Shown here one piece after another: positions 4,636 to 25,524 of a stretch of DNA of 44,064 nucleotides (within the stretch, counting starts at the first letter, position 1; the number at the start of each line of letters is the position of its first letter). Source of the stretch: a virus; IMG/VR virus record IMGVR_UViG_3300029797_000003, positions 1 through 44,064 of that record. One strand, written 5' to 3'. Under the pieces are notes generated by a model that worked only from the letters and a program-made list of their open reading frames with translations, was not told the origin of the DNA and searched no databases. A program made the position numbers and the translations under genes.

Positions 4636-4641
4636 ACAAAA

Positions 4642-7671: not shown

Positions 7672-7708
7672 CTCAAACAATCTGCGAAAAATACACGATA
7701 TTTAGACC

Positions 7709-7743: not shown

Positions 7744-7840
7744 ACAGATTAAATGCTTAATGGTTTAAAACGGTTATGAGTTTCATGTCTGATTATGGAT
7801 ATTATGTAAAATTTAAATGTGAATAAGGCTATAAGCAGCA

Positions 7841-7869
7841 TTGACAAAGGCTTTACTACTGAGTAGTAT
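7841..7869 (+). promoter_or_regulatory. near-consensus sigma70 promoter with a palindrome over the -10 (candidate operator)
   Basis: TTGACA (7841-7846), 17-base spacer, TAGTAT (7864-7869): 11 of 12 consensus bases. The palindrome TACTAC-TGA-GTAGTA (7854-7868) overlaps the -10 box. Transcription should start near 7876, about 58 bases before ATG 7934. The palindrome suggests repression by a dimeric protein; which one is unknown. Confidence 0.78.
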
Positions 7870-7933
7870 TTGCTCACTGAGTTTTGACGTGACGCAAATT
7901 TCAAATATTTTAAAATAGCAAAAAGGAAAACAA

Positions 7934-8483: not shown

Positions 8484-8489
8484 AGCAAA

Positions 8490-8516
8490 AAGCCCCGGAG
8501 ATAACCACCGGGGCTT
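8490..8516. terminator. bidirectional intrinsic terminator between converging operons
   Basis: AAGCCCCGG (8490-8498) pairs with CCGGGGCTT (8508-8516), loop of 9. On the plus strand TTTAATTT follows; on the minus strand TTTTTGCTTT follows. It separates the rightward early genes from the leftward late genes. Confidence 0.85.
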
Positions 8517-8520
8517 TAAT

Positions 8521-8862
8521 TTAATGCCGCATACAGTCAAGCGGAGGCATCCGCTTTCGTAACCCCGCCCATGTCAAAAAACTGACTTTTTCCCTGCCAC
8601 CATCTGGGTACATGAGATACACACCTCTTTTTTTTGCACTGAATGAAAACCGATATTGTATTTTTGCGTCCACCCATTTCCCCGTTGCATCACAAAGGAT
8701 TTGCACCCGGTCAGACGTTGCCGGGTTCCCGTCCACATCAAACGCCCGGAGGTGATAAACGCTCCACGCTTTTAAGAGATTTCCAATTTCAGTTTTAAAA
8801 AAACCCGCGACAACCGGAAAAATAATTGCCGCAACCAACCAGTTATTCATTAATCCATCCAT
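8521..8862 (-). CDS. membrane-anchored protein of the lysis region, 113 aa
   Basis: Start ATG 8862, overlapping the lysozyme stop by one base (TGATG) with GAGGGGG in front; TTG 8865 and ATG 8850 are alternatives. Residues about 5-22 (NNWLVAAIIFPVVAGFF) form one membrane segment near the N-terminus, followed by a soluble domain of about 85 residues rich in beta strands (DRVQILCDATGKWVDAKIQY). It is the last late gene before the terminator and lies directly behind the lysozyme. Single-span proteins here can be holin partners, spanin parts or superinfection-exclusion proteins; the sequence does not decide between them. Confidence 0.7.
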   Translation of the reverse strand: MDGLMNNWLVAAIIFPVVAGFFKTEIGNLLKAWSVYHLRAFDVDGNPATSDRVQILCDATGKWVDAKIQYRFSFSAKKRGVYLMYPDGGREKVSFLTWAGLRKRMPPLDCMRH

Positions 8863-9497
8863 CAATCCCCCTCACGCCCAATTGCCTCAACAACCTTGAT
8901 CAAAAAACCTGACCTGTTCGGCGTCTTTTCGGCCCATAGGCTGTTTTTCATTTCTTCGGCCATGGTCTGCCAATTATTGGCCCGGACTGATGCGATCATA
9001 CCGCTAAATCCACGGAACCCGGAAAACCCAAGCTGAAACCGCATGTTGATCAGCACTGATTTTATTTGGCCCGGCAGGTCCGGCCATTCTTCCCGAAAGA
9101 TATTTTCGGATAAGTCGGCCAATGCCTCGGCCATATCATTTTCAAAAAGGATTTCTGCTTCATCCATGGATATCCCCTTTCCTGTCAGATTCCGACCATA
9201 TCCTATATGAAGCTTATCGCCTGTGTCTTTGTATGGTTTTAATGATAGGCCCTCATGCCTTTTTATTGTCTTTTCTGCTACATTTGGAACTCTGGCCTGG
9301 ACTTCCGTACCTGGGACCTGAGATCCGATATAAACCGTCATGGTCCCATGGTTTTGCACCCCTGACAACTGCGTCCCGCTATGATTTACCGCACCACGCG
9401 CAGGAGCATCAATACTGGTGGTCGTCACAAGAGGCTGAACAACAGGTATGCACCCGGCCAGACACAAACACAAAATCACATAAAAAAGATACCTCAA
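8862..9497 (-). CDS. GH24 (T4-type) lysozyme with lipoprotein signal and Thr-to-His active-site change, 211 aa
   Basis: Residues 1-16 are a lipoprotein signal (MRYLFYVILCLCLAGC) with lipobox LAGC and lipidation at C16, so the enzyme should be exported by Sec and anchored by a lipid. A 60-residue Gly/Ser/Thr-rich linker leads to the T4-lysozyme domain (about 75-205). The catalytic pair is kept: E82 in RHEGLSLKPY and D91 in YKDT. The third residue, Thr26 in T4 lysozyme, is H97 here (KLHIGYGRN); spacing E to D (9) and D to H (6) is exactly as in T4. The engineered T26H change turns T4 lysozyme into a retaining, transglycosylating enzyme, so the mechanism here may differ. The gene overlaps both neighbours and is part of the lysis cassette. 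Confidence 0.88.
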   Translation of the reverse strand: MRYLFYVILCLCLAGCIPVVQPLVTTTSIDAPARGAVNHSGTQLSGVQNHGTMTVYIGSQVPGTEVQARVPNVAEKTIKRHEGLSLKPYKDTGDKLHIGYGRNLTGKGISMDEAEILFENDMAEALADLSENIFREEWPDLPGQIKSVLINMRFQLGFSGFRGFSGMIASVRANNWQTMAEEMKNSLWAEKTPNRSGFLIKVVEAIGREGD

Positions 9498-9640
9498 TTC
9501 GCCCCCTGCTGTACCTCTACAGTCACCGGTTCATCAACCACCTGTGTTTCCGCATCATTCAAAAGTGTTACCGCCAAAACTCCAAGCGCAACGAGTACGC
9601 CCAAAATAGCCTTACCTGTTTTTGTTTTGAAAAAATCCAT
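9494..9640 (-). CDS. small single-span membrane protein coupled to the lysozyme, 48 aa
   Basis: ATG 9640 behind AAGGATGGG opens a 48-residue frame too short for routine ORF calls. It starts MDFFKTKTGKAILGVLVALG, has one membrane helix (residues 11-26) and an acidic, Gln-rich tail outside it. The stop overlaps the lysozyme ATG as ATGA, so both are translated together. Size, one span and location suit a small holin or a holin regulator, but single-span holins are diverse and no family is recognised. Confidence 0.6.
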   Translation of the reverse strand: MDFFKTKTGKAILGVLVALGVLAVTLLNDAETQVVDEPVTVEVQQGAN

Positions 9641-9649
9641 ATCCCATCC

Positions 9650-9880
9650 TTAAAATCCAAAGATCCGCGAAAGAAAGCTTCGGCCATCGTCCAAATTGCA
9701 GTCCTCCGGGTTGGCGTTCGCCCGCTTTCGTGCCGTGTCAATGTCGTTAGAAGTAAACAGCAGCGGAGCATAAGCCCCGTCTGAATACTCAACGATTGCC
9801 GGATAATATTCTAAAGCAGACCCGAATAGCCTATCTTTATTCGTCACTTTTTCGGCAATAATAATTCTACTTTTCACCAT
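9650..9880 (-). CDS. hypothetical protein of the lysis region, 76 aa
   Basis: Start ATG 9880 with AGAGGTGG in front; GTG 9883 directly before it is also possible. The N-terminal half has short strands (VKSRIIIAEKV) and the middle has EYYPAIVEYSDGAYAPLLFT; the C-terminus is Asp/Asn rich and ends in an amphipathic FLSRIFGF. No membrane segment. Nothing is recognised. It overlaps the membrane gene upstream by 14 bases and lies 10 bases from the 48-aa membrane gene, inside the cassette between fibre genes and lysozyme. Confidence 0.6.
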   Translation of the reverse strand: MVKSRIIIAEKVTNKDRLFGSALEYYPAIVEYSDGAYAPLLFTSNDIDTARKRANANPEDCNLDDGRSFLSRIFGF

Positions 9881-10259
9881 CACGCCACCTCTTGATTTGT
9901 CTGTAGCTCTTTGGCATTGTTATGAAAATCAGTGTCGGCACAGCAACGCAAATCGCTAAAATATGAGCCAAAACACATAAATAACTATCAAGAGCATCAC
10001 AACGCGCCGGAGTAAGCCAATCCGAAATCCCGGCAACACAACAGGCCAAGCTTATTAGATAGCTCCAAATGTCTATAATCCAATGCCGAATTGTATCCAT
10101 ATTAACCTTTTTTTTTGCTGCCAACTTAGCGTATTTTACAATCTTTTTATGGAAAGCGTATTTGTTTTCTATTGCTTGATTTAAACTTGTTTTATCGCAT
10201 GATATATATCCACCACCTTCTACTTCTGCCGTATAGTTAAATGATGAGCAACTTGACAT
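9867..10259 (-). CDS. two-span membrane protein, holin candidate, 130 aa (or 77 aa from an internal start)
   Basis: Two membrane helices lie at about residues 61-78 (IIDIWSYLISLACCVAGI) and 91-113 (DSYLCVLAHILAICVAVPTL), followed by a strongly basic tail (KSYRQIKRWRDGEK). This matches the class II holin plan, with both ends inside the cell. The long start (ATG 10259) lacks a good ribosome binding site, while the internal ATG 10100 has AAAGGTTAAT in front and would give exactly the two-span part, 77 aa. Two starts could give holin and a longer inhibitor, as in other dual-start holins; that is inference. The first gene of the leftward lysis cassette. Confidence 0.65.
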   Translation of the reverse strand: MSSCSSFNYTAEVEGGGYISCDKTSLNQAIENKYAFHKKIVKYAKLAAKKKVNMDTIRHWIIDIWSYLISLACCVAGISDWLTPARCDALDSYLCVLAHILAICVAVPTLIFITMPKSYRQIKRWRDGEK

Positions 10260-10281
10260 TTGCCAGGGCTGAGCAGAAACA

Positions 10282-10300
10282 ATTTCGGACCACCCGAAAT
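10282..10300. repeat. short perfect hairpin between fibre-assembly and lysis genes
   Basis: ATTTCGG (10282-10288) and CCGAAAT (10294-10300) with a 5-base loop, in the 67-base gap after the DUF4376 gene. On the minus strand TTGTTTCTG follows, a poor T-run; it may be a weak terminator that lowers lysis gene expression. Confidence 0.35.
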
Positions 10301-10326
10301 GCTTAGGGAGTAAATAAAATATTTTT

Positions 10327-10983
10327 TTATTGTTTTAGTAGAGTAAAATCAAGTTGAAAATTTTCGATATTAATTGCCTCCAGCTCATCGAAGGTTGATA
10401 CAGCGTTTATGAGTTCCGTGAGTTCCTTTTCACGGGTGAAGCAAGCTTGTACATGGTCTGCTACGGCACTTGCAATGGCTGTGATTGCTGTTGCATTAAG
10501 GGTTGCCCACCCGTTTGTACCTTTCCAGTCGATCGTTTTATTTGGATTGATTTGGATGGCATTGTAAGCGCCTGTGATCATTGCCTGGGATTCACGGTCT
10601 GTTTTGATTTCTGAACCATTGACGGTTATGCCTGTTATTTCTGCGGTGTAACGCCTCTGTGCAAGTTCAGTTATTTTTTTGGTTTTTAAGATTTCAAGAT
10701 AGTTTGCTTCTTGGATCTCTTTTGTATCACCTCCAGGGATGTCGGAAAATTTGTCTGTGATACTCCATGTGTAATGGTACTCGTTACCGATCTTGACAGG
10801 GGTGCCAAGTTCAAGTTTTTGAAATGGTGTAATGTCTGGTTTTATAGGTTTGATAATAGGGTAGAAGCCTTTAGCTATAACAGCCTCTGGTCCCCAACCT
10901 TTTGCTAGTGATGTCGGATATACTGCCTTTTCAACACCACGCCTTGATAGTTCTTGCCCTGTGGATTCATTATAATATTTCAT
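10327..10983 (-). CDS. DUF4376-type fibre-assembly/chaperone-like protein, 218 aa
   Basis: The C-terminal half (about residues 95-215) has the DUF4376 pattern: RYTAEITGITVNGSEIKTDR, SQAMITGAYNA, then DWKGTNGWATLNA and AVADHVQACFTREKEL. The N-terminal part (MKYYNESTGQELSRRGVEKA) looks like the linker of tail-fibre assembly proteins. Such genes usually follow fibre or spike genes and help fold, attach or cap the fibre. Here it directly follows the LamG fibre gene (10 bases apart). It might instead be a structural piece of the fibre tip. The domain call is good; the chaperone role is by position. Confidence 0.78.
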   Translation of the reverse strand: MKYYNESTGQELSRRGVEKAVYPTSLAKGWGPEAVIAKGFYPIIKPIKPDITPFQKLELGTPVKIGNEYHYTWSITDKFSDIPGGDTKEIQEANYLEILKTKKITELAQRRYTAEITGITVNGSEIKTDRESQAMITGAYNAIQINPNKTIDWKGTNGWATLNATAITAIASAVADHVQACFTREKELTELINAVSTFDELEAINIENFQLDFTLLKQ

Positions 10984-10993
10984 TGGTTCTTCC

Positions 10994-13102
10994 TTATATG
11001 CTGAAGTCTGATCCTGCTGTTACAGTACCATTGACTGTGAAATCCCCACCAGTGCCTAAGTTTTTACCTAAGTCATCTGGATCATCAAAGGGTAAATAAA
11101 TGAGGGGTTCAGGGATGTCACCATTGTCAATTGCTTGGGTCAGGTCTTTTGGATATCCAAGCTGGTCAACGAATAGGTTGCGGTTTGATTCTTGTGAGAA
11201 GTCTATGTAATCTGTGGTGAAGTAAACTGAAGCTATATTTCCAGATCCATCCCTTGAACTATACTGTTGAAATAACCCAATTTGATCAGCACCTGAAAAA
11301 TCTATAAACTCACCAACATCAAATATAGTAGAAGCAGCAACTTCAATACCATTTAAATAAAGATTGTCTTTTGTATTATCTGATAAATCAATACTACCAA
11401 CAAGCGTATTCCACCCTGTCACTGTGCCACTATATGATCGGTCATACTCTTGCAGACCACCATCAGAGAATAAACCTACACCCAAACTGCCACTGCTGGG
11501 AGAAACTCTAATCCTAAACGCAGGTTGAACATTTACTGTATCCGCTATAGCGAAATAAAAGGAATCAGAGAGTATATTGAAACAAATGAAGAAAGATACA
11601 ATCTGCCCATCACTACCAGAAAAAGGTGCAGTTAGTGACCCAGCAGCATCCGTTGTAACTAAGGCACTCCTTGTCCAAAACTCACTTGCCCCTCGAGCAC
11701 CAGTCAACCCGCCACCATTCAACGTAAAATCCCCACCAGTACCAAGGTTCAATCCTGGATTATTTGCAGATATAGGCATGGCAATTAACGGGGTATTGCC
11801 GGTTTCCTCAAGGACTTGTCGTATTGGTTTTGGTTTGTTGGTATTTGAATCCCAGAATGGATTGTTGGTGGAAAGGTCAATATAGTTGGTGTCGAAGTAA
11901 AGTTCGCCTATTGAGCATGTCCCAACAATAGTTGGATTATATGGATTTGAGTTAATTAAATAATTTTGCTGACCTGAAAATTTTAAATTAATATCATTAT
12001 AAATATCCCATACACCACTAATAATTTCACCATTAACAGATATAATTCTTTTTGCAGTATTCGACATATCTACAGAAATAGATATTGAAAAAAATTTATC
12101 AATAATGTTCATTAATTCAGATTCACATGTAAGATTTAACACTTTTGATCCACTTGAATTATACATTGACAGATAAAACGCAACATCGTTAAACTTTATT
12201 TCAAAATAATTATTAAGTGTTCCTACCGTACCAAATGCAAAAAATCTACTCAAAAGTTGTAAATGACCTGTAGCACTAAATGTAAACTGCTTCCCATCAC
12301 TTGCCCCTATCCCTGTGCTACTCAAATAATCATCCGTCCCATCAAACTTACTCGCCACACAGTTCCATTGGTTCGGTCCTCTGGCAGCCTGGTCAAGGGT
12401 ACCATTAACTGTGAAGTCCCCACCGGTACCCAAGTTGGTTCCAGCCGTATCAACATCGGTCATGGGGAGGTATAGAATAGGGGCAAGTGAAGCTTGTCCG
12501 TATGCTGGTTTTAGATCGTCTGTAATGAAAAGCCTACGGTTTGCTTCGATTGAAAGATCCCGGTAGGTGTAGTCGAGGAATAGGTGGGCAAGTCTGCCTT
12601 TATATTTAGTAAAGGATGCAGCAGCAAAAGACATAACAACATGTTCTGTTTGTGTAAAATCTATACTGTCGTTTGTAAATGGGGAAGGGGTATATGTAAC
12701 AAGATTATCATTAATATATAAATGGCTCTTGGTATTCAGTAAGTCTCCGCTTATTAATATATGATTCCATGTATTCTTGGCGAAACTACTATCACTCTCC
12801 CCATTTATGATAATAGTGTTAGAGGCATTTCTTGCAAGGATAGTCATAGAGCCATTACTATTAATTCTTAAAAAAAATACCCCATTTCCTACCCTGCTTC
12901 CTGTATCATAAACATATGATGTAGTACCGTCCCAATAAACCCAACAACTAAAAGTAAAAGTTTTGCTATCCGTATTACCAACAAGATCACTGGAACGACT
13001 CAAATAATCATTTTCACCGTCAAAGGATACCGCTTCAGGTAAAATTCCAGTATCTCCACCATCACTACCAGCACACATCAATAATTTATTAGATACACTC
13101 AT
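10994..13102 (-). CDS. tail fibre/spike with three LamG-like domains, 702 aa
   Basis: ATG 13102 overlaps the previous stop by one base (TAATG); the longer frame has no better site. Three LamG (concanavalin-like) domains follow each other, at about residues 25-200, 235-430 and 470-660, each beginning with a FDG-x-(N/D)DYLS-like or equivalent strand (AVSFDGENDYLSRS; ASKFDGTDDYLSST; a diverged third). Each ends in the repeated linker NLGTGGDFT(V/L)NG. LamG domains bind sugars or proteins, so this is a strong candidate for the receptor-binding fibre. The linker recurs at DNA level about every 680 bases, so the gene grew by duplication and can vary by recombination. Its neighbours are a tail beta-domain protein and the DUF4376 assembly protein. 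Confidence 0.85.
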   Translation of the reverse strand: MSVSNKLLMCAGSDGGDTGILPEAVSFDGENDYLSRSSDLVGNTDSKTFTFSCWVYWDGTTSYVYDTGSRVGNGVFFLRINSNGSMTILARNASNTIIINGESDSSFAKNTWNHILISGDLLNTKSHLYINDNLVTYTPSPFTNDSIDFTQTEHVVMSFAAASFTKYKGRLAHLFLDYTYRDLSIEANRRLFITDDLKPAYGQASLAPILYLPMTDVDTAGTNLGTGGDFTVNGTLDQAARGPNQWNCVASKFDGTDDYLSSTGIGASDGKQFTFSATGHLQLLSRFFAFGTVGTLNNYFEIKFNDVAFYLSMYNSSGSKVLNLTCESELMNIIDKFFSISISVDMSNTAKRIISVNGEIISGVWDIYNDINLKFSGQQNYLINSNPYNPTIVGTCSIGELYFDTNYIDLSTNNPFWDSNTNKPKPIRQVLEETGNTPLIAMPISANNPGLNLGTGGDFTLNGGGLTGARGASEFWTRSALVTTDAAGSLTAPFSGSDGQIVSFFICFNILSDSFYFAIADTVNVQPAFRIRVSPSSGSLGVGLFSDGGLQEYDRSYSGTVTGWNTLVGSIDLSDNTKDNLYLNGIEVAASTIFDVGEFIDFSGADQIGLFQQYSSRDGSGNIASVYFTTDYIDFSQESNRNLFVDQLGYPKDLTQAIDNGDIPEPLIYLPFDDPDDLGKNLGTGGDFTVNGTVTAGSDFSI

Positions 13103-13488
13103 TATGACACGTCCAATCCAGCCACAAAGCCCAACCAAGTGGTGCCAGCATCATTGGTGGTGAATACCAATACGTCAATACCATCAGCAGTTAATGTGGG
13201 TGCAGTGGCATCTACCCAATCAACACTCGCAGGCCAGTTTATTGTTTGGCTCCCTCCGTTGGTTAAGAATAGTGTAAAACTTCCATTAATCCCAGACTCT
13301 GGGGGATTAGAGAATGTGAATGTTTGCTCTGCTGTACTTACCGTAGCGGTAACAACATTGCCATCTTCCAGGTCAATATCGTCAGTACCGCCTCCGAGAT
13401 CCCCAAGGGCGTTAACTGTCTCCCCACCATTGCCGGAAGCACTCCCGGAACCAATTGACATAAAAATAGGACATCCTACTCCATTCAT
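13102..13488 (-). CDS. small tail/virion beta-domain protein, 128 aa
   Basis: The C-terminal 80 residues (TFTFSNPPESGINGSFTLFL, NGGSQTINWPASVDW, then TADGIDVLVFTTNDAGTTWLGF) form a beta-sandwich pattern found at the ends of many phage fibre and appendage proteins. The N-terminus is Gly/Ser rich. It is probably a fibre-associated or adaptor protein. It overlaps the LamG gene by TAATG, so both products are likely made in fixed proportion. An opposite-strand frame of similar length has no ribosome binding site and is a shadow. Confidence 0.75.
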   Translation of the reverse strand: MNGVGCPIFMSIGSGSASGNGGETVNALGDLGGGTDDIDLEDGNVVTATVSTAEQTFTFSNPPESGINGSFTLFLTNGGSQTINWPASVDWVDATAPTLTADGIDVLVFTTNDAGTTWLGFVAGLDVS

Positions 13489-13512
13489 TCCAATTTCCTC
13501 CCCTATTATTAC

Positions 13513-13800
13513 TTAATCATCCATCCTGCTACCAGGTCTCAACACCAAAGTCGCTTCGCCTGAAAGTGCCTTGGCGTACATTACGGTGTCCCCCGGTTTT
13601 TCATAGTGCGACCAGCATAAACCAACGATGCCGGCAAGAGTTTCATCGGTGCCCTCAGAATCCGTGGCAAAATAAAAAGCAACAACTCCGCCGTCATCAT
13701 CCACGGCATGCACAGAAAAACCAAAAGCATCATCATCTCCCAGGGTCACAGCTGTATATGTGCTATCATTCAATGTAAATGTTCGAGCAGATTTAATCAT
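13513..13800 (-). CDS. hypothetical virion protein, 95 aa
   Basis: ATG 13800 follows AAAGGAAAA. The protein is acidic and beta-rich (TFTLNDSTYTAVTLGDDDAF, then VVAFYFATDSEGTDE), without membrane segments. It resembles small appendage or decoration proteins of phages in composition only. Its place between the polyvalent protein and the fibre genes suggests a structural role. Not identified further. Confidence 0.65.
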   Translation of the reverse strand: MIKSARTFTLNDSTYTAVTLGDDDAFGFSVHAVDDDGGVVAFYFATDSEGTDETLAGIVGLCWSHYEKPGDTVMYAKALSGEATLVLRPGSRMDD

Positions 13801-13813
13801 AATTTTTCCTTTA

Positions 13814-16800
13814 TTAATTTTCTACGCGCATGCGTTCTCGTTTATTCGGCCTGAAGGCTCGCCTAACTCGACTCTTAATGGTTTTTGGAGTTATTGGTGA
13901 CATAATTCTTGTCAGACCATTGCTTTTAACTCTCGCATTAAATTTTAAAACTTCGTCAACAATATCCTGCCATTCTTCCGGATTTTTATCTTTTCCAGGT
14001 TTGGCATGATAGTGCACAATCCGGCTGTAGATCCTGCGCTTACGTTCTGAATACTGTCGCATTAATGTAGTTTCGTTCCATTTGATTTCACGGGGCTTGG
14101 ACAGTCTGATTGGATTCAAACCCGCCGCCCTCATAATCCCGGAACCTAAATTGCCTTTCAGTTGCTCATTGCCAAAAAACACTGGATCACCTGACCGGGT
14201 GGTTACGCCATCTGTGGTTTCTCGTATTGCCTTGACAACATTACCGGCGGCAAGCGGTGTGATTTTTTCAAGACCTTTAAGGTAGTTTCCCTGGGTCAAG
14301 TTCTGGCCGCCCTGGTAAATGTTTCGCATCATACCACCGATTGGCCCTAATAGATCCAAAGGTTCTTGTATATCAGGTAAATTAGGAGCAAGCGACCCCT
14401 TGAGGTTGATACCCGCCAATCCAGGCAAGCCATAGCGGGCAACATCGCCCCCGGTTTCACCAAAAAGAGACTCTGCTACCTGGTAAATCTTTTCTTCCGG
14501 ATCATCTTCATCCATGGCTTTAAAAATCATTTTCACAGCAGGCAATAAAATGGAACTGGCCGCGCCGCCAAATACCATTGGAGAAAGAATCATATAAGTT
14601 GCCGCCGCTGCCTGCCGCCGCCCAATCATATAAGCCATCGTTGTAAAATAATTGTGCATGAATGTTTGGAAAATATACATAGCCGATGCCGCCCGGAGCC
14701 CCCGGCCTTTCCTCAGCAATGCCGGTTGATTTTCTGCGCCATAAATTCCGTGGGCTCTATCCGATACGGTCTTTGCTTTTGACAAGGCATCCTCTTTTGA
14801 CATGCCCGGATTTTCTGCCATAATCCCTTTATATGCCGCCAAAAGAGTTGTGCCACGGTTAAATTCCTCCGTAATCTTGAAAGGAGTCATCAGCAACTCA
14901 ACCGCCCTGCCGTATTTCTGGGCCGGGCCGGATTTTAAAGCATTTACGGTTTCCATATTTAGCTGAGCCGCTACCCATCCCCTGGAAAAAATTTCCTCAA
15001 GGATGGCCCGATCATTTTTTGAAACATTACCTTTTCCCGTGACAAAAGAAGCGTAAGCCTTCCCGGCTTGAACAATATGTGTGGCAGTCCGTTTCAATGG
15101 CACCCCGCCATAAGCATTCATGGCAGCCGGAACGGTGGTTCCCATGGCCGTGATGTTGACTGCGGCAGATGACAAACGCCCACCAAGAAACCAAACACTT
15201 GCCAAACCCTTCAGGGTATTTACCACCCGATCACCGGCCTCATCATTTTTTAGCACATTTTCAACAGCATTGACGGCATCTGTATAAGCCCGTTTCTGCC
15301 GCTTAGGATCAATCATGTTGTCCTGGATGTACTGCCGGTATTCTTTATGAATGTTGCCCCGCAGTCGGGCAATTTCCTGATGTGTAGCAGCCGCCTGATC
15401 CTTATCTTTCCATTTCAGAATTTTTTCTTTTTCACGGAAAAGGGTACCGATTCTAAATAACCGGTCCTGTCTACTTGCCTCGGATTCAGTTTTAACCCCT
15501 ACCCGTTCCCGTTGTAATTCTTTAATTTTCTGATCAATGGTGACAATTCGTTCTTCTTCGGTTTTAGAATTCTTTTGAAGGGTCTCTAAATGTTCTTCAG
15601 CCATTTTTAAAGATTTATAATCCGGGTGCTGTTCTTGCCATTCATTCCAAGTATAATGCTGACCGGTAATTGCCTTGGATGTATTCAAGGCTACTTGCTG
15701 TTTGGCAAATCCGCCAGCCGCCGAGTTGATCGCCTGGGCAATGGCCTTGACCGGGTCAGTTTCATATCCTACCGGTACATCTTTCCCCACGGCATCGGAT
15801 CTGGAAATCATCCGGGCACGGCTGCCCCTGGCTCGGAGATCATCAGCCAATTGGTTGGCTATGCTCTGGGCAATCTCAAAAGAAATATCCGTTTCCTGGC
15901 CTTGAGCCATGAATAAAGCATTGGTAACAATTTCGTGCATATCTTTGGGAGCGTTGTCAAAACGATATCCGGGAGACCAACTATTTCCACGACGCCCCTT
16001 GTCAGAATAGAACTGTCCACCCAATTTCTTTAAAACAGACTCAGACCAAGCATAAACACCGCCATTAGGCAAAACATAGTCATCCCCCCGCCATTCACCT
16101 TTTAAACCCAAATCCTCAAGCTTCCGAAGTTTGGTATCTAATTTGGTTTCTGCCAAAGCCTGGTTAACCATAGCCTGGGTTGAAAGGATGCTTTTCACAT
16201 TCTGATATACATCCTCTGACATACTGCCAACCTTCTCCACTTCCACAGTATACCCTTTGGACTTCATTTTCCCGGCCAGAAAATCAGCAGTCTTTTTAAA
16301 ATCCCGATACTCAATAAAATCGTGTTCACCTTCTTTCTTTGCTAAAATTCTCCAATCACCGTTTGAACGTTGTCTCGGAAAATAATAGGAAGATCGATCT
16401 CCCATTTGTGACAGAGCAACTTTCAGGTTAATACGGACTTCACCACCTTCTGTCCGTGTCACAACGTCAGGGATTGTAAGGCCACGGTCTTCATATTCCT
16501 GGATAATAGACTCCCAAGATTCTGCGTAAAAATCATGAAGGTTGACTGTCATGGTTCTAAATGCTCGTAGCGCATCACGGCCTACCGGATCTGGATATTC
16601 ATCAATTTCGTACTGGATCGCCAAGACACGGGCTTTCTTTTTTGTTAAAATTCCTTCCTCTAAAACTGATCGCTCGCCGGTACGTTCGTTTTTTGGTGAT
16701 TTGATTGTCCATGTGCCATCTTCATCCTGAATAAGAATGGCCCCGATTTGGTTGATATCCCTGTCAATAAGATATTTTTTCAATTGGGCATAAGCCGCTT

Positions 16801-19800
16801 TATTCTGTTTTTGTAGATCTTGGAGAGTTCCGACCATGGACTCATCACCGTTTTTATATAATTCGTTTTCTTTTTGGAACTTCCACTCAGACCGTTTCAA
16901 TAATTCGTCAAATGTTCTTTTCAGGGCAGGTATTTTTTCAGAGTAATGAGACATCAAGCCCATGAGGTTTTCGATAACACCAATATCTTCTTTATAATGA
17001 GCGCCCTTATTTTTACGATTTGACCAAACGTTTTTCATTCCGGATAAAATCTGGTCATAGGTTTTTTCCTTTTCTTTGATTGGGATGGTATCCGTGTCAA
17101 CAGAGAATTGGGACGCATCTTGCTTGACCTGATTTGTTGCCTGCCTGTCATTGACATCCCGGCTATAAATATTTTCGGACTCATATTCCCTGGCAAGCTT
17201 CCGGGCGGATTGTCTCCCGATGTGAGTCAGTGCATCAAAGAAATCCATAACCTTTTGAATGATTGCGCGAACTTTTGAGCCTTCTTGGTATTGTTTCCGA
17301 TCATCCACAATTTGAGCTAAGGCATTCGAGGCGTTTTCCTCAACGTCGTTTTGCAATTTGTATTTGAATTTATTTTGTGCATCCAGGTTTTTTGCTATGT
17401 TATTGAGGATTCTCTCTTCCTCCACAGAGACCATACCAAATTCTCTTAATGCGTGGTAGTTCTCGTGAATCGGTGTTCTTCTGTCTGCGTCTTTCAGGTT
17501 GATAGTTATTGTGCCATTCTGATATTTGCCTTGAATAACGCCATTCTTCTCCATTCTGCCGGATTCTATAGCAATGCGGATATCATTACCGCCGATATGA
17601 TTCACTGTCTCTATTTTGACGCCTTTGCCGTTTGTAAACTGGATAGATAGAGTCCCGTCTTTATTAGTGGTGATCTGCTGGTTTTTGTATTGGGATTTGA
17701 TCTGATCAAGGGTTATACCTTGACCAGGGGTATGGTCTGTGGTGGTGGAATACTTCGACCGATCTTCCTCAACCCCAACAATATCCTTTGCCGCCCACAA
17801 CGCAGGATCACTCCTTTTACGCTGCCATGCACCCACGCTCGGAGCCCACCGGAAGCCATTTTTCTTTAATCGACCCCTGATATCTTCGCTCGGTTTCTCT
17901 TCATGGAAAATCTGAACCCGGTTATCTTCCACATTATCGATGATCTGGCCGCCGTCAAAATCAATCTGCGTGGTTTCTTCGTTGGTTTGCTTTTCGAGTT
18001 CGGCTATCCGGTCCCTGGTGCGTTTGATATTGGCGTTGTTATTGGATAGGGCATAGGCAGGGAACCCGACTTTTCCGGCATAATCAGGTTCGAGTAAATT
18101 CTTGGCGTCTTTTTCTTTAATGCCAAGTTTGGCAAGTTCTTCAATTTTCTGTTCGTCGGTTTTCTTTTTGGCTCGGGTAATCCGATTGGCAGACTTCATC
18201 ATCTCCTGGGCGGCTTCCAGATCAGCCAATTTTTTACTCAGCTTATCAACGGCTTTGGGATCATCACTGGAAATCACACCGGATAAATCAAGATTGCGCT
18301 TAATGGCGTTTTGGGCTTTTTTATCCCACGCCTGTAATTCTTCATACCTACGCTGCTCGGCATCAAGGGCTTTTTGATTTTTAGTTGTTGGGAATCTCGC
18401 GGCACCGGTAATCATGGAAGACATAGTTTTTGACTTGGCATCCAAAACCGCCCCGTATTTTTTCAGATAACCTTGTTTATATTGTTCAAGTTCGACTTTT
18501 AACGCCCCTTCCTGTTCAGGTTTAATCCGTTTCAGGAAATAATCCCTCACGGATTTCATATGCTGGACATACCCGGCCTGTTCCTGTTCAGCTCGTTCAT
18601 CCGGAACATGACTTGTACCTCTGTGAGCGTCATAGGCTTTTTGGTAATCCAAATCGTTTGGGAGGGGGTCAAGAATCTCTAATTTTTCAAGTTCCTTGTT
18701 CTTTTTTTCGACATGCTCCTTGATTGATTTCCGCTGACCGGCAGAGAGTTTACCTTTTAAACGAACCTCACCTTCTCTGATATCGTTGATTATTTTTTGC
18801 TTGTGAGGGAGAGGTTGACTTATTCCTGAACCGTCGGGTACTTTCCGGGCTGTTTCTCCATCTTTGGCTGTGGCACCTTGATCTGACAAGGAACTTCCGG
18901 GTACTCGATCTTTTGAGAGGACGGCAAGCAGGGAGTCGAGGTATTTTTCAAGGGCTTCCCCTTCTTTTTCACTTTCATAACGGTAAGTTTCCTTTAAATC
19001 ACCCACCCGGTCAGCTACAGCGGCCTTTGCAGCTTGAATATCTTCCTCTAAAGAGTTTGATTTCTCAAGAAATTTATCAAGCTGTCTGGGTGTTAACGTT
19101 CCTTCATCAATCTTGTCAAGGATTTCCGGACCAGTCAAATTTTCAGGCAGTGACAAGATATCAGCATACTTGTCATCTATTCTATCATTAACGGACTTTT
19201 CAACCGTATCGCGTTGACTTTTCGGTGTGGCATCCAGGTCAACAACATCGTCCATGCCGGTAGAATCAAACTCCGGATAATGCCGAACGCCTTCATAAAA
19301 AGATCGCAAATAAGGCTTAATGGTTTCTCCGACATCCTCAACCATAGCCTTTGAATATGCAGTGAAAGTCCGGGCACCGGCTTCAATATGATATCCGGCA
19401 AGCTGAATACCTGCCAACATGATTTCCGGGTCAATGCCGGAATTTAGCTGATTACCAGATAATTTTTTACGAAGAAGTTCACGGGCTTTATCGGCACCTT
19501 CTTTGGTAAAGACTTTATTTCTTTCGCCATATTTGGTAGGCGTTATTTCTTGTTTAGTTTGTTGATCCTCTGTTCTTCCGGATCTTCCGGAATCTTCATC
19601 GCGTCCTTTATCGCCCCTTGCAATATCGCCCGTTTTGCGTCCTGGGCTTCTTTTTTGGTCGGTGGGTTCTTCAAATAAGCTTTGTTGTCTGTCTTCGTAT
19701 TTGTCATTTAAAAATTCCTTGGTTGTTTCAATTAAATCTTTTGAAGTTAACTCATTCGTTGTACCAAACATTTCAGCTTGTGACAAATCAGCAATATAAG

Positions 19801-22800
19801 CCCGAAGCCTAACACCCATCGAATCAAAAAATTCACCAATACGTTTTCCGCTTCTGATATTGTCTGCTAATAATTGAGCGATGATCTTAACTTCTTCACT
19901 TGGATCACTTCCAAATAAATCCCCCTGGTCAATCGTTTGTCTTAATTTAGCCTGCAATGCGGTTCGACCATTCCCGGCTTTTATATCTGGATACTCTCTT
20001 TGGGCGCGACGTAATAACTCAATGCCTCCAACTATATCTTCAACAATACCGGTCCCAGCGAGATTATCATCAAGGCCACGAGCTTTAACAAAATTGGGGG
20101 CACCCTTTGTCAATCCATTTAAAATATTCTTGATATCTGGATTTGCTTCCTCGGCAGACAACTTAAGTAACTCTTCAGACCCATATGCCTTCTGGAAAAC
20201 AGCGGCCTGAACACGGTCAATCAACTGTTTATTCGCCCTGCCATCCTCGGTTACATATCCGGCTCGTTCCTCTGGAGACATTTTATCAAGAAACAGATCA
20301 ATAAAACCTTTATTTGTGGCGGCCATCAGGTTCCCGTCTTGGTCCGGCCGGAACATAGCCAGATCATCAGATGATAAATTGCCGGCATCCACTATGGCCT
20401 GTTCAGTGCTGCTCAATTTAGCCGTGTCTGCTTCATTGGCCTGCTGGGTGAACCGGGATAGATTGTCAATATCAGTTTGCCTGCGACGAACCAGAACCGG
20501 TTCTTTGATCGCCTTGACCTGGTCCACAGTCAACCCGAATAATTCTGCATTTTTTTGCAACCAAACCTTATACTCTGATCCGGTCTTACCACCGGCATAC
20601 GCTTTACGAATCGCCAATGTTCGGCCGTTCCCAGACTCAACAATATTTGAATCTTTCCCTACCATGGGGGCACCCTGGGCAACATTGGCACTTTCACCGA
20701 GTCTGGCAGGATTCAGTTTAGATGCCATGTTCTCCACCTGCATAAGTGAAGCTTTTCTACTACGCTCCCTGGGTTGAAGTTCAGCAGGGAAGTCAGGATT
20801 AACAGACATGTTGTCATTGTGACTTGTGATCAATTCATCCGCGTCAATCACTTCATAGTTGAAATCAATAGATGTATTGTCATTTAAATATGTGGTTCCT
20901 GAAGATCCTGTGTTTTCTGGAGTTGCTGTTTGCTCATGAGATGCGACACGTTTCAAGGATATGGTATCACCAACTGATGGTTCGTTCTTTTTATTATTCT
21001 GATCATCTACCGTCTTCTCTCGCCCAACAAATCCACCGTCAACCGCTATAGCTTCATGAGTATCGGCCATGCCTTTCTTTTTAAGGTGATTGTCCAGGAC
21101 GACTTTTGATTTCCAGGGGTTGCCTTTTGAGGTTTTGATATCTGACGCACCATCCTGAGCCTTTGCAATACGGTCACGCTCAGCCCGAACACGATCATTG
21201 TAACCAGGGGTATTTAAATCCGTTTCTTTCTCTTGTTGAAAACCAAGTTGTTGCAAAGCCTCTGTTTTGTATTGTTCTGTGACATTGGAGACATCAACTC
21301 CAAGCCGGTCAAACTCGGAAAGCTCTTTTTCTGTAAAAAGGTTGCGGCCTTTTTTTTGTGGAGAAGTAACCCCACTCGGTGCGCCGGGTTCCGTGGCGGG
21401 CGGGGTGTTGTTTTCTGTTTCTGCACTTGCCGCTTCCGGCACAACCCCGGCCTGTTCCCCCAGAGCCCCCGGCTGCCGAGCCTGCCACCGGGCATATTCA
21501 CTGACCTTGTCGTTACCGGCATACTCTTTGTCTACGGCTTCAACCGATCCGAGCTTCTTGACACGATTTTCTATAAAACGAATCTGTGCTTGGTCGGTTA
21601 TAGTGGGCTTATCTATTATTTTCTCAGAAGTGGTATTTCCCACCGGGCTATTACTATAATCGCTTATAGGTTGTGGATCATCCGCTAACGACAAGCCAAC
21701 TTGAGGATCATTTTCTTGCTTTTGTGATCCACTAATCAGATCCTTTTCAAGGACAAAGGTGTTTTTGCCATCGATCTTCTGGACAGACCAACGATTTTTA
21801 TTCTTTTTGACCAACTTCCCTGACAGGGTTTTACCTGCTTTGGTCTGCCATGTTACGGAATCGCCAGGGGTTAACTTTACTTTTTCAGACCTGATATTGG
21901 GCGTTTTCGCTTCTTCGGTAATATCTGCTTCTTCGCTAATTAGCGTATTTTCTGGAATTACCGTTGGATCAGTCTTTTCAACGCGATGTCCAGCAATATC
22001 CGTGTCAATAGATTGAGCCTGGCTATTTAACTCACGCTTGACTTGCGCCTTGATTCGCGCCTGTTCCCGCTGCTTTAAAATTTCCTGTTCCCATACCCGC
22101 CCCTGTTGCTCAGACTGTTGATTTTCATATTCTCGCAACAAGCCTTCAGCGTCCGATTGAATCGGGGGCCTATCCGGATACTCTTTAATATCGGCCTGGG
22201 CCTGTTGTAAATTCTGTTCAAATTCATCAATCTTTTGATCCCTGAAATCTTCCTGAAATTGATCAAAGCTATCTGACTCTTGACCAATCAAATTTTTCAT
22301 GGGAAGGGAGATTTTATCTTCGGACCGGCTATAACCAACCTGCGTTTCAGGCTCGGATTTATCAACACGAGATTTACTTGCCTCCCATTCCTTTCTTAAT
22401 GTTTCAACATCCGGTTGGATCGGTGGGCGTGGTTTGTAATTTTTAATGCCGGACTGAGCTTTTTTAAGTTCTTGTTCAAATGTATCTGCTTGAACATTAT
22501 AAAGAAATTCATCGAAAGTTTTAGATTCATCCGCGATAAGCTCTCTACGCTGATCAACTGTTTTTGATGTCTGTTCTTCCGGTTGTTTGTCTTCCGGAAG
22601 TTGTTCAACCATCCCTGGTTGCATTGGGGAAACATCTGAAGAACTTTGGTTCTCTGATGGAATTTGCTGTGAATCCTGTTCAGGTTTATAATCCGTAGTG
22701 GCCTCAACTTCATCTACCGGATATTCATAAATATCTTCTTCTGGAATGCCGCGTTCAACTTCCTTTTGGAATGCGTATTCCTTAATTTGGCTGTCTATAT

Positions 22801-24163
22801 TAGCCAATTCATCAACAAAAGCCTGACGGCGTTGTATTTGAGTTTCAGAGGGCTTTTTAAACCTATCGATATTTTCAATTTTTCGCTCTATGCTCTTTCT
22901 ATAATCCTGAACGGCCTGTTCGCCTTGAAGATTTCTAAGATTTTCAAAGTGTTCGTCTGCTTGAACTCCTACTATTGCTTCATCCGTATTAATGGGTTGA
23001 CCTTGAGCCACGGCAGCCAAGGCATTTTCTTGCCAAATATCAGCATCGTCCGGCGAAACCTTTCGTATATCATTCGCAATAATAGAGACAGCTTCTTGAC
23101 GTAACCTTGGGTCTACATTTGCGTCTTCAAGTTTCTTATTAATATTTTTTCGATTTAAAGTGACACCTGCTTCCCCAACCCCTAAAAAAATCATGGATGC
23201 GACAAAAGACGGCCCAAAAGCTTCTTTGGCACCATCGATAAAACTTTGATCCGTTTCATTGATCGCATTATATTGTTCGGCCTGGATACCGCCTGTCAGC
23301 ATTTCACCGCCAACCTCAAAACCGACATTGGCGGCCATTCTTCCTATTCTGGCTTTGATCCCTTCTTTCATTAACGACTTAACGCCGTTCTTCAGCGCCT
23401 GTTTGCCTGGGATAGTCAAGGCCTTTGCCCCGCCAAGCGTCGCAGCCTCAAGGGCATTCGCAGCAAATTCAATCCCGCCTTCAGCTAAACCGGAGATCAT
23501 GGCTTTTTCTTCAATCTGTTCTTTTGATATCCTGCCTTGCTTGTAAGCGTCAGAGTTCAAACCTTGCTCCACGAATGAATCATATTCAGCAAGGCCAAAC
23601 AAAGGGGCACCACTAACATATCCCACGAGACCGCCCAAAAGCGCACCCGCCGGTCCGCCGAAAGCAAAACCAGCAGCGGCAGTGGGAATAGCAGTCCCCA
23701 GGGACGTAACAGCTGAACGGGCACCTTCACGAATAGCATTCCCGATACCACTGTCGGTATGCTGTGTTTGTAAGAAAGGGTGTTCTTCTTGAAATTCCTC
23801 CATGCCTGAAATAGCACGATCAAGGAACCCTGGTGTTTTTTGCTGCTTGGGGTCCACACCACCGGATACAGGACCACCCGGCAACGCTCGCACACCTCTT
23901 AATCCCATCTCTACCAGGTCATACAAACCTCCGGCAACGGCTGTGCCTACATCACCCATGAAACCACGTTCTTGATCGGGTTGTGTGGTATCCATCTGAG
24001 GTTCATCATCAGGCCATCCAGAAACAAGACGCGACTCGTCAAAAGGCAAAGAAGAAATAGGTTTTTCCTCTTGTGCAGGCAGACCAGATTTTGCAGTATT
24101 GTTGTCTTGGCGTTCTTCCGGCCAACCACTAACAAGTCGTGATTCATCAAAGCCCACTATCAC
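13814..24163 (-). CDS. giant polyvalent protein with DdrB/ParB-like and zincin-like domains, 3449 aa
   Basis: GTG 24163 overlaps the previous stop (TAGTG) and follows AAGGAGATA. Seen in order: the peptide FDESRLVSGWP twice (residues 5-15, 41-51); a Gly/Ala-rich hydrophobic region (about 150-200); long Gln/Glu-rich helices with a 50-residue repeat in two copies (about 538-591, 622-681); an SH3-like barrel (about 768-808); a small polyvalent-associated domain (about 1017-1051); a DdrB/ParB-like domain (about 1095-1300, core ESGNGRTLAIRKAY); an LPD-type domain with AGYHIEAGARTF (about 1575-1625); a GFRWAPSVGAWQR module (about 2080-2127); a zincin-like HENYH site (2233-2237) with a later EEN; coiled coils; and a C-terminal LPD38-type region with hydrophobic helices. 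Polyvalent proteins are packed in virions and injected to act on the host. No helicase or methylase motifs were seen. Confidence 0.85.
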   Translation of the reverse strand: MIVGFDESRLVSGWPEERQDNNTAKSGLPAQEEKPISSLPFDESRLVSGWPDDEPQMDTTQPDQERGFMGDVGTAVAGGLYDLVEMGLRGVRALPGGPVSGGVDPKQQKTPGFLDRAISGMEEFQEEHPFLQTQHTDSGIGNAIREGARSAVTSLGTAIPTAAAGFAFGGPAGALLGGLVGYVSGAPLFGLAEYDSFVEQGLNSDAYKQGRISKEQIEEKAMISGLAEGGIEFAANALEAATLGGAKALTIPGKQALKNGVKSLMKEGIKARIGRMAANVGFEVGGEMLTGGIQAEQYNAINETDQSFIDGAKEAFGPSFVASMIFLGVGEAGVTLNRKNINKKLEDANVDPRLRQEAVSIIANDIRKVSPDDADIWQENALAAVAQGQPINTDEAIVGVQADEHFENLRNLQGEQAVQDYRKSIERKIENIDRFKKPSETQIQRRQAFVDELANIDSQIKEYAFQKEVERGIPEEDIYEYPVDEVEATTDYKPEQDSQQIPSENQSSSDVSPMQPGMVEQLPEDKQPEEQTSKTVDQRRELIADESKTFDEFLYNVQADTFEQELKKAQSGIKNYKPRPPIQPDVETLRKEWEASKSRVDKSEPETQVGYSRSEDKISLPMKNLIGQESDSFDQFQEDFRDQKIDEFEQNLQQAQADIKEYPDRPPIQSDAEGLLREYENQQSEQQGRVWEQEILKQREQARIKAQVKRELNSQAQSIDTDIAGHRVEKTDPTVIPENTLISEEADITEEAKTPNIRSEKVKLTPGDSVTWQTKAGKTLSGKLVKKNKNRWSVQKIDGKNTFVLEKDLISGSQKQENDPQVGLSLADDPQPISDYSNSPVGNTTSEKIIDKPTITDQAQIRFIENRVKKLGSVEAVDKEYAGNDKVSEYARWQARQPGALGEQAGVVPEAASAETENNTPPATEPGAPSGVTSPQKKGRNLFTEKELSEFDRLGVDVSNVTEQYKTEALQQLGFQQEKETDLNTPGYNDRVRAERDRIAKAQDGASDIKTSKGNPWKSKVVLDNHLKKKGMADTHEAIAVDGGFVGREKTVDDQNNKKNEPSVGDTISLKRVASHEQTATPENTGSSGTTYLNDNTSIDFNYEVIDADELITSHNDNMSVNPDFPAELQPRERSRKASLMQVENMASKLNPARLGESANVAQGAPMVGKDSNIVESGNGRTLAIRKAYAGGKTGSEYKVWLQKNAELFGLTVDQVKAIKEPVLVRRRQTDIDNLSRFTQQANEADTAKLSSTEQAIVDAGNLSSDDLAMFRPDQDGNLMAATNKGFIDLFLDKMSPEERAGYVTEDGRANKQLIDRVQAAVFQKAYGSEELLKLSAEEANPDIKNILNGLTKGAPNFVKARGLDDNLAGTGIVEDIVGGIELLRRAQREYPDIKAGNGRTALQAKLRQTIDQGDLFGSDPSEEVKIIAQLLADNIRSGKRIGEFFDSMGVRLRAYIADLSQAEMFGTTNELTSKDLIETTKEFLNDKYEDRQQSLFEEPTDQKRSPGRKTGDIARGDKGRDEDSGRSGRTEDQQTKQEITPTKYGERNKVFTKEGADKARELLRKKLSGNQLNSGIDPEIMLAGIQLAGYHIEAGARTFTAYSKAMVEDVGETIKPYLRSFYEGVRHYPEFDSTGMDDVVDLDATPKSQRDTVEKSVNDRIDDKYADILSLPENLTGPEILDKIDEGTLTPRQLDKFLEKSNSLEEDIQAAKAAVADRVGDLKETYRYESEKEGEALEKYLDSLLAVLSKDRVPGSSLSDQGATAKDGETARKVPDGSGISQPLPHKQKIINDIREGEVRLKGKLSAGQRKSIKEHVEKKNKELEKLEILDPLPNDLDYQKAYDAHRGTSHVPDERAEQEQAGYVQHMKSVRDYFLKRIKPEQEGALKVELEQYKQGYLKKYGAVLDAKSKTMSSMITGAARFPTTKNQKALDAEQRRYEELQAWDKKAQNAIKRNLDLSGVISSDDPKAVDKLSKKLADLEAAQEMMKSANRITRAKKKTDEQKIEELAKLGIKEKDAKNLLEPDYAGKVGFPAYALSNNNANIKRTRDRIAELEKQTNEETTQIDFDGGQIIDNVEDNRVQIFHEEKPSEDIRGRLKKNGFRWAPSVGAWQRKRSDPALWAAKDIVGVEEDRSKYSTTTDHTPGQGITLDQIKSQYKNQQITTNKDGTLSIQFTNGKGVKIETVNHIGGNDIRIAIESGRMEKNGVIQGKYQNGTITINLKDADRRTPIHENYHALREFGMVSVEEERILNNIAKNLDAQNKFKYKLQNDVEENASNALAQIVDDRKQYQEGSKVRAIIQKVMDFFDALTHIGRQSARKLAREYESENIYSRDVNDRQATNQVKQDASQFSVDTDTIPIKEKEKTYDQILSGMKNVWSNRKNKGAHYKEDIGVIENLMGLMSHYSEKIPALKRTFDELLKRSEWKFQKENELYKNGDESMVGTLQDLQKQNKAAYAQLKKYLIDRDINQIGAILIQDEDGTWTIKSPKNERTGERSVLEEGILTKKKARVLAIQYEIDEYPDPVGRDALRAFRTMTVNLHDFYAESWESIIQEYEDRGLTIPDVVTRTEGGEVRINLKVALSQMGDRSSYYFPRQRSNGDWRILAKKEGEHDFIEYRDFKKTADFLAGKMKSKGYTVEVEKVGSMSEDVYQNVKSILSTQAMVNQALAETKLDTKLRKLEDLGLKGEWRGDDYVLPNGGVYAWSESVLKKLGGQFYSDKGRRGNSWSPGYRFDNAPKDMHEIVTNALFMAQGQETDISFEIAQSIANQLADDLRARGSRARMISRSDAVGKDVPVGYETDPVKAIAQAINSAAGGFAKQQVALNTSKAITGQHYTWNEWQEQHPDYKSLKMAEEHLETLQKNSKTEEERIVTIDQKIKELQRERVGVKTESEASRQDRLFRIGTLFREKEKILKWKDKDQAAATHQEIARLRGNIHKEYRQYIQDNMIDPKRQKRAYTDAVNAVENVLKNDEAGDRVVNTLKGLASVWFLGGRLSSAAVNITAMGTTVPAAMNAYGGVPLKRTATHIVQAGKAYASFVTGKGNVSKNDRAILEEIFSRGWVAAQLNMETVNALKSGPAQKYGRAVELLMTPFKITEEFNRGTTLLAAYKGIMAENPGMSKEDALSKAKTVSDRAHGIYGAENQPALLRKGRGLRAASAMYIFQTFMHNYFTTMAYMIGRRQAAAATYMILSPMVFGGAASSILLPAVKMIFKAMDEDDPEEKIYQVAESLFGETGGDVARYGLPGLAGINLKGSLAPNLPDIQEPLDLLGPIGGMMRNIYQGGQNLTQGNYLKGLEKITPLAAGNVVKAIRETTDGVTTRSGDPVFFGNEQLKGNLGSGIMRAAGLNPIRLSKPREIKWNETTLMRQYSERKRRIYSRIVHYHAKPGKDKNPEEWQDIVDEVLKFNARVKSNGLTRIMSPITPKTIKSRVRRAFRPNKRERMRVEN

Positions 24164-25524
24164 TATCTCCTTCCGATGGGATTTAAATTTTCATCATAAT
24201 ATTTGCCGGTTTTAGGATTTCTGAAGTATCGTTTTTTTTCTTGCTCGTCGTAGACTTTTTCAAACTCATTTACAATTTGATTGTATCTTATCTGAGCTTG
24301 ATTTGCATAATTCGCCCGTGCCTGGGGATCTTGTTCTGCGCCAAAATTCCGATCATCATATTCATTTAATGCATTTTGCACATACTTTGCTTCGGCTTGA
24401 CGGTTTGCCAAATCACTTGCCGCCCTCTTACTGTCAGTTTGATATTTCGTACGTTCCATTGCAGCACGGTTTGCCATAGCTTGTCTCTGTGCCGCCCCTT
24501 TATTGCTGAGCGCCTGAGTGTTCAATTTGTTTTGATTGACAGACCTTTGCCTTTCCATGGTGTCTCTTTGGTCTATTTGCTTATCTATGCGGTCTTCCGT
24601 CAACCCAAGGATGGCGCCTTGTTTGGTTTTATAAAAGTCTTGTGTTCTATGGTCCCAAAAACCTCCAGTTACTGAATCTCCATCCTTTGTACTGTGAAAG
24701 GCTCTATGATCTTCAATCGGTCCACTAAGAACACCACGCCTGGGAGCCACGTCAAAGCTACCTCTCTCGTTTGGAAATATATTTCTCTGGGTGAGGTCAT
24801 TACCTCGCAACTCAAACACACCAACAGCATTCCTCTCTTGAGGATTGTTAGACCATTGGCGACTTTGCCCCTGGCTCACTGTTGTAGGAGGACTCGACAC
24901 CACTATGGGGGCTCGGTTCTGTACTGTTTGCGCTGGTGCCTGCATATTATTGTCTGACTGCCCCACTGGAACATAAAAATTTCCGTGTGGAAGCCGTTTA
25001 TACTCCATTCCTACAGGCGTGTTTCTTCGTATATCTTCGTATGCCTTATCATACCCTGCTTGAGTAATTACCTGTCTTCCTGTCTTCGAGTCGGTAGTCC
25101 AAAGGGGCTGATTAAACTCTTTGGAAACGTTTATTGGTGTCGTTCGGTTGAGATTCGGTACATTAACATCATTTGGTGTATTTGCTACATCCGTAGCCAA
25201 TGGAGTAGAAGGTATAAGGGCTGGATTAATCACTTTGGTATCTTTGAGATTGCGCTGAATCTGAGCATTATTTTGCATCCCGGCTCGACCGGTTTGAATA
25301 GCACTGTTTGTATCGATAAGACTCCCAAAAGAAAAATCTTTACCATTGGGTTTATTAAAACTGATTGGAACCCTGTTGACTTGATTTGTATTGATTAGCG
25401 GGGTCTGGTTGTCGTTTGTCATTCTACCCCTGCCGGACATAGGGCTTGCGTTCTGCGGTTTTTTTTCCTTCTTCGGTGGGGTATAATAATCCCTCATGGC
25501 TTGATATTCATTTTTGAGTGTCAT
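24163..25524 (-). CDS. Asn/Gln-rich internal virion protein candidate, 453 aa
   Basis: ATG 25524 behind AAGGAAAATAAAG. The first 240 residues are low in hydrophobic content and rich in Asn, Gln, Thr and Pro, probably disordered. Residues about 320-430 are a long Arg/Gln/Ala helix (KGAAQRQAMANRAAMERTK). The protein ends KRYFRNPKTGKYYDENLN. Such a flexible, helical protein next to the giant polyvalent protein is most simply another internal or ejected virion protein, as gp14/gp15-like proteins are in T7, but no direct similarity is seen. Its stop overlaps the start of the giant gene. Confidence 0.65.
   Translation of the reverse strand: MTLKNEYQAMRDYYTPPKKEKKPQNASPMSGRGRMTNDNQTPLINTNQVNRVPISFNKPNGKDFSFGSLIDTNSAIQTGRAGMQNNAQIQRNLKDTKVINPALIPSTPLATDVANTPNDVNVPNLNRTTPINVSKEFNQPLWTTDSKTGRQVITQAGYDKAYEDIRRNTPVGMEYKRLPHGNFYVPVGQSDNNMQAPAQTVQNRAPIVVSSPPTTVSQGQSRQWSNNPQERNAVGVFELRGNDLTQRNIFPNERGSFDVAPRRGVLSGPIEDHRAFHSTKDGDSVTGGFWDHRTQDFYKTKQGAILGLTEDRIDKQIDQRDTMERQRSVNQNKLNTQALSNKGAAQRQAMANRAAMERTKYQTDSKRAASDLANRQAEAKYVQNALNEYDDRNFGAEQDPQARANYANQAQIRYNQIVNEFEKVYDEQEKKRYFRNPKTGKYYDENLNPIGRR

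Follow-up and report, generated by a model that had tools for sequence, protein, structure and literature searches.

A cysteine-free viral polyvalent protein of 3449 residues with conserved ends and an exchanged middle

The window, meaning the whole stretch of DNA that was analysed, is a virus record of 44,064 bases (IMG/VR record IMGVR_UViG_3300029797_000003), and 23.5% of it is taken up by a single real ORF of 3449 residues on the minus strand, in line with the 23% given in an initial annotation made from the sequence. Matches to terminase, portal, capsid and head-closure proteins lie upstream of this ORF and bear out the virion gene cluster described there. Hydropathy likewise recovers the hydrophobic regions that had been placed near both ends of the protein. 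The nearest relatives are found on the IMG/VR contigs L002 (5395 aa), L005 (4120 aa) and L022, and the giant gene occupies the same gene position in L002 and L005. The features of the locus are as follows.

24163..25524, minus strand: upstream gene, 453 aa, 0 cysteines; candidate co-ejected protein
13814..24163, minus strand: ORF of the polyvalent protein, 3449 codons, GTG start, 0 cysteine codons
24119..24151, minus strand: N-terminal motif FDESRLVSGWP, copy 1, residues 5-15 (ungapped self-match)
24011..24043, minus strand: the same motif, copy 2, residues 41-51 (ungapped self-match)
23588..23692, minus strand: Gly-rich hydrophobic stretch, residues 158-192 (hydropathy; like stretches in L002 and L005)
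23156..23212, minus strand: hydrophobic stretch, residues 318-336 (hydropathy)
21704..21883, minus strand: small module, residues 761-820, conserved in L002, L005 and L022
19631..20980, minus strand: DdrB-like core, residues 1062-1511, with the ddrB-ParB domain at 1095-1228 (PF18763, phrog_5143, P1 DdrB)
19214..19573, minus strand: conserved module, residues 1531-1650 (E 6e-55 to 2e-20)
17774..18607, minus strand: DUF3560-like exchangeable section, residues 1853-2130, with a C-terminal GFRWAPxxGAWQR element (phrog_6744, 2e-47; PF12083, 0.008)
17150..17761, minus strand: zincin-like section, residues 2135-2338 (conservation and profile matches; no curated-family match)
17453..17467, minus strand: HENYH motif, residues 2233-2237 (motif search, conservation)
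13817..17074, minus strand: conserved C-terminal section, residues 2364-3449, with YYFPRQR at 2593 (compare PLxRFG; identity to L002, L005 and L022)
13859..15346, minus strand: tail-700/PLxRFG domain, residues 2940-3435 (NCBIfam NF032893)
14534..14590, minus strand: hydrophobic stretch in the C-terminal section, residues 3192-3210 (hydropathy)

Elsewhere in the window, a 235-aa ORF (6041-6748) resembles by eye a PAPS reductase-type enzyme, a gene for which is also carried by phage JC1. A 194-aa ORF (4687-5271) has a GIY-YIG/T5orf172-like stretch, YVYLIRTPLGVYKIGKT, and an 89-aa ORF (8214-8483) resembles an HU-type DNA-binding protein, both by eye only.

Polyvalent proteins are recognized by multiple unrelated activities in one chain, by a virion or transfer gene context and by delivery along with DNA (Iyer et al., 2017; PMC5512222). 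The ORF lies in such a context and carries DdrB-ParB, DUF3560-like, zincin-like and tail-700 domains, so that, judged by its sequence, it was rightly called a polyvalent protein within a virion gene cluster. Scans of cellular genomes returned no relatives, PADLOC gave no match, and a PDB sequence search with the whole protein was discarded for want of a credible match. The best-defined domain is the DdrB/ParB-like core that had been proposed around GNGRTLAIRKAY (residues 1178-1189). The ddrB-ParB family PF18763 covers residues 1095-1228 at E=1.1e-34 (119.6 bits against a gathering cutoff of 27.6 bits), the core matches phrog_5143 at 3.5e-110, and P1 DdrB aligns at 36% identity across ~400 aa (E=3e-73) with the arginine of the GNGRT motif retained. 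The two proteins share the ParB-like domain and this motif inside the region of similarity, as well as an HExxH farther downstream (HELGH in P1 DdrB), but P1 DdrB has 995 aa and 2 cysteines, comes from a myovirus and is without the tail-700 section.

The domains flanking the core were read less well from the letters alone. The supposed SH3-like barrel at about 761-820 is a genuine module, conserved in four proteins (E 3e-10 to 1e-7), but a PDB search with this putative barrel gave no credible match. Pfam returns no LPD matches for the several polyvalent-associated domains that had been suggested; what the chain does contain is the tail-700 domain and a module at 1531-1650. This module recurs in 11 other giant proteins, and its residues 1545-1644 are 81% identical to L002 and 78% to L005. 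A PHROG label of “endolysin” (phrog_938) was rejected as misleading, spanning only residues 1541-1631.

Between the module and the zincin-like section the relatives part ways. In L002 the module sits before a DarB-like methylase, which shares the gap with SF2 helicase and ART domains, and in L005 the gap holds a helicase, a methyltransferase match and ART. In the 3449-aa protein it measures ~490 residues, including the DUF3560-like domain, and the dyad of methylase and SF2 helicase by which DarB is recognized was not found, Pfam returning no methylase or helicase match. The module, the zincin-like section and the C-terminus are constant in comparison with L002 and L005; the section between module and zincin is swapped. 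Retention of the module without the methylase suggests that the methylase section has been lost or exchanged. Another payload is seen in L022 (2-13330), a relative of at least 4443 aa, where an inorganic pyrophosphatase, a helicase and a phosphoribosyltransferase-like match are found. With ends that are conserved and a middle that is swapped between related viruses, the protein thus represents a type already known from phages, in an unusual version.

The assignment of the exchanged section to DUF3560 is indirect. PF12083 scores 16.7 bits (E=0.008), below its gathering score of 27.2 bits, in the 3449-aa protein; the solo relative L020 matches the family at 6e-35 (120.5 bits) and is tied to the giant through the solo proteins of phrog_6744. 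Most of the other phages in which it was found encode the domain by itself, in proteins a few hundred residues long. A PHROG “primase” label was set aside: it also stands on a solo gene of an automatically annotated phage, and Pfam gives DUF3560 and no primase family. The suggestion that the combination of domains may be new was fair, and its distinctive part is this domain, which had been left unnamed. DUF3560 is absent from the main text of the survey of polyvalent proteins (Iyer et al., 2017; PMC5512222).

The section that follows was proposed to be zincin-like on the strength of its HENYH, and is likely a zincin by motif, conservation, weak profile matches and position. The motif stands at residues 2233-2237 and is the one HExxH of the protein, against 0.03 expected by composition. 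It is kept in relatives, and together with a downstream EEN it is invariant in three proteins; the segment put forward for a third ligand, NDVEENASNALA, was located at residues 2272-2283. The section is 62% identical to L002 and 60% to L005. The fold itself did not find a match in Pfam, in NCBIfam or, credibly, by profile among PDB sequences. A weak profile match links the segment to that of the giants of the Parlo type (69.9%, P=4e-5), and the C-terminal HMM, which holds no zincin of the 3449-aa protein, aligns the section colinearly but weakly (E=0.0026). A structure model built from three sequences was discarded (pLDDT 37.5). In most of these giants, and in the virion RNA polymerase (vRNAP) of phage N4, an HExxH lies ~1,050-1,370 residues before the C-terminus; the giants of douglas, PBC5, Atu_ph08 and Y7 have no HExxH anywhere. 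In L022 the zincin-like section could not be found or aligned, and a different HExxH section (HELIH) precedes the kept C-terminus.

The C-terminal ~1,085 aa are 83% identical to L002, 77% to L005 and 65-67% to L022. The tail-700/PLxRFG family matches at E=7.3e-38 (130.5 bits), above its curated cutoff of 100. An independent comparison over 469 columns places the profile of the clade with that of the Parlo type (99.8%, E=1.9e-28), whereas a further one is circular in that profile A8 contains the sequence of the 3449-aa protein. The C-terminal HMM matches 16 other proteins in the gathered set, several of which helped to build it or are close to its builders. Against PDB sequences the C-terminal profile found no credible match. 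A model of the corresponding section of the homologue L058 (pLDDT 63.7) is nearly all helical; among viral models its strong matches are to other polyvalent proteins and its weak ones to T7-like internal core proteins, and a fold search of the PDB with it gave no significant match. On its sequence, then, the protein is a member of the known giant phage polyvalent proteins (DarB-like/PLxRFG). With those of Serratia phage Parlo and Klebsiella phage SopranoGao it shares the tail-700 domain, the 1531-1650 module, the absence of cysteine and the placing of the HExxH (1,084-1,217 residues from the end in these phages). It differs from them in having the DUF3560-like domain between module and zincin instead of methylase-helicase, a DdrB core, and a HENYH zincin of divergent type.

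The most striking property of the chain is compositional. It contains no cysteine, where the frequency in the other genes would predict 46 (Poisson 1e-20), and no other residue is so depleted, all lying within about 0.7 log2 units. Base composition is excluded as the cause since every other frame of the ORF contains 57-170 TGT or TGC triplets. Across 17 giants, hand-picked records that include N4 vRNAP, a total of 65,349 residues includes 5 cysteines; one of the phages was named a siphovirus by its depositors, so that the set may span more than one tail type. Genes fetched around the giants have about 0.5-1.5% cysteine. In the methylase-helicase section, three plasmid homologues contain 4, 3 and 8 cysteines; each of the seven phage giants with an alignment of at least 1,300 residues contains no more than 1, and a Parabacteroides element that carries a terminase gene contains 2. 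The Parabacteroides record L073, deposited as a plasmid, encodes an LPD38 protein of 4970 aa (3835-18747) in the vicinity of a terminase gene and is probably a misfiled phage or phage-plasmid. Solo DUF3560-like proteins have 0.96% cysteine, which gives 2.8 expected in the 291-residue section of the giant, where none is found. The genes upstream of the giant in L002 (312 and 620 aa) and L005 (331 aa) have no cysteine, and we consider the 453-aa cysteine-free protein of the window a candidate co-ejected partner. In N4, the ejection proteins gp50, gp51 and gp52 (PMC12633501) are cysteine-free; gp53, gp54, the portal and the tail proteins have some cysteine, and the capsid proteins gp56 and gp57 also have none, so that some other virion proteins share the property. 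Cysteine absence in N4-type vRNAPs is already known and was explained by the hindrance that disulfides would pose to injection (PMC3915230, citing Kazmierczak et al.). It is not established that the rule is unpublished for DarB-like giants, the literature covered being open-licence papers. Packaging as such needs no purge, since P1 DarB, which is packaged in a myovirus, has 9 cysteines in 2255 residues. One possibility is that near-total absence of cysteine in giants is a sequence mark of ejected proteins.

The initial annotation described polyvalent proteins as packaged and injected weapons, of which the role as a weapon would here be putative. Indirect evidence favours packaging and injection of the 3449-aa protein, namely a purge of cysteine as in N4 vRNAP, the gene order and mass spectrometry of JC1 virions, which contain a distantly related giant; by its lack of cysteine and by analogy with its relatives, the protein probably resides in the virion and enters the cell as a threaded chain along with the DNA. 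In the Bcep22-like phage JC1, the DarB-like gp69 (4515 aa) was detected in CsCl-purified virions with 51 unique peptides, as were gp64, gp67 and gp68; gp62, gp63, gp65 and gp66 are absent from the list (PMC9144972). All four detected proteins are cysteine-free, gp63 and gp65 have 3 and 4 cysteines, and gp62 and gp66 are small and cysteine-free. Like the 3449-aa protein, gp69 has the 1531-1650 module (47% identity), an HExxH (1051 residues from the end) and no cysteine. Unlike it, gp69 carries methylase-helicase and has no tail-700 match, so that transfer of packaging to the present protein is analogy as much as homology. In P1 DarB a 30-residue N-terminal leader can direct packaging (PMC9024508). 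The duplicated FDESRLVSGWP, whose ungapped self-match was reached by 0 of 200 shuffles, may be a virion-incorporation motif. Short duplicated N-terminal motifs occur in about 1/4 to 1/3 of the giants examined, with a sequence that differs per phage, and are clear in the 3449-aa protein, L005 (residues 6-60), MelJY34 (L009) and 8P (L027). A universal packaging signal was rejected on these grounds, the repeat being weaker in Atu_ph08 and ABTNL-3 and absent in most others.

Our preferred reading, which we consider probable, is that of a virion-packaged and ejected DarB-like/PLxRFG polyvalent protein with a constant delivery frame and an exchangeable payload. As the particle assembles, the giant would be brought into the head by its N-terminal leader, which bears the duplicated motif, and by the tail-700 section, and the upstream cysteine-free protein would enter together with it. 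Upon infection the giant would travel with the DNA through tail and envelope as a thread that is at least partly unfolded, and its hydrophobic ends would touch the membrane. In the cell, we would guess that the zincin-like section at the border of payload and C-terminus frees the payload by self-cleavage, and that the DdrB core and DUF3560-like domain then work on the DNA as it arrives or in the early steps of its processing. Self-cleavage before packaging is made less attractive by N4 vRNAP, which carries an HExxH domain and is packaged uncleaved (PMC5512222).

A different emphasis would make the giant mainly part of the ejection machine, resembling the T7 gp16-like internal core, with a C-terminal section that belongs to the DNA conduit and enzyme-like domains of secondary importance. 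The nearly all-helical L058 model is compatible with this, as are its weak matches to “Internal virion protein D” (E=1.6e-3) and “internal core protein” (E=2.5e-3) and the cysteine-free genes that the giant gene adjoins. However, TM-scores for these matches are 0.13-0.15, the PDB matches are not significant, and the DdrB core belongs to a conserved family with its motif retained, all of which makes the idea unlikely. At the other extreme, a non-virion protein with polyvalent domains could have come to lie among virion genes by chance, as the solo DUF3560-like genes of other phages might suggest; given the same gene position in L002 and L005, the cysteine purge and the detection of JC1 gp69 in virions, we regard this as very improbable.

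Descent from a common ancestor with N4 vRNAP, in which the N-terminal part, the zincin and the C-terminal frame were kept and the polymerase replaced, is suggested by a likeness in plan. N4 vRNAP (gp50) consists of a likely membrane-spanning N-terminal domain, the polymerase, a C1 domain with HExxH and a large, mostly helical C2 (PMC12633501). The present protein has the same order, of membrane-like N-terminus, payload, HExxH section and large C-terminus, at nearly the same size, with the HExxH at 2233 of 3449 residues as compared to 2228 of 3500. Both are cysteine-free, both genes close the virion cluster beside cysteine-free genes, and the zincin segments of the Parlo type and N4 match at 76.6%. 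The payload of N4 is an RNA polymerase, however, and the C-terminal sections are without a sequence match: hhalign of the profiles of N4 and the tail-700 clade gives 3.8%, the tail-700 HMM misses the N4 proteins, and N4 vRNAP is absent among 40 PDB fold matches of the L058 model, from a library that may lack its full-length entries. With profiles, HMM and fold search all negative, C1-C2 homology and a common C-terminal frame are not supported, and such kinship appears improbable; the two proteins resemble each other in design, and not demonstrably by descent.

How a protein of ~3,500 residues passes a narrow tail and then works is an open question for N4 (PMC12633501). We tentatively suggest, at somewhat less than even confidence, a general phage ejection format common as a design to DarB-like polyvalent proteins and N4 vRNAPs. 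Such a giant would be free of cysteine, begin with a leader, carry a replaceable payload whose C-terminal border is in most cases marked by an HExxH section, and close with a C-terminus of ~1,100 residues, and lack of cysteine would predict which large proteins thread the tail. Many giants whose payloads differ are almost entirely purged of cysteine, unlike plasmid homologues of the same enzymes, and this may then provide a sequence mark for translocated proteins; the exchange of payloads between fixed borders suggests a delivery frame that occurs in nature.
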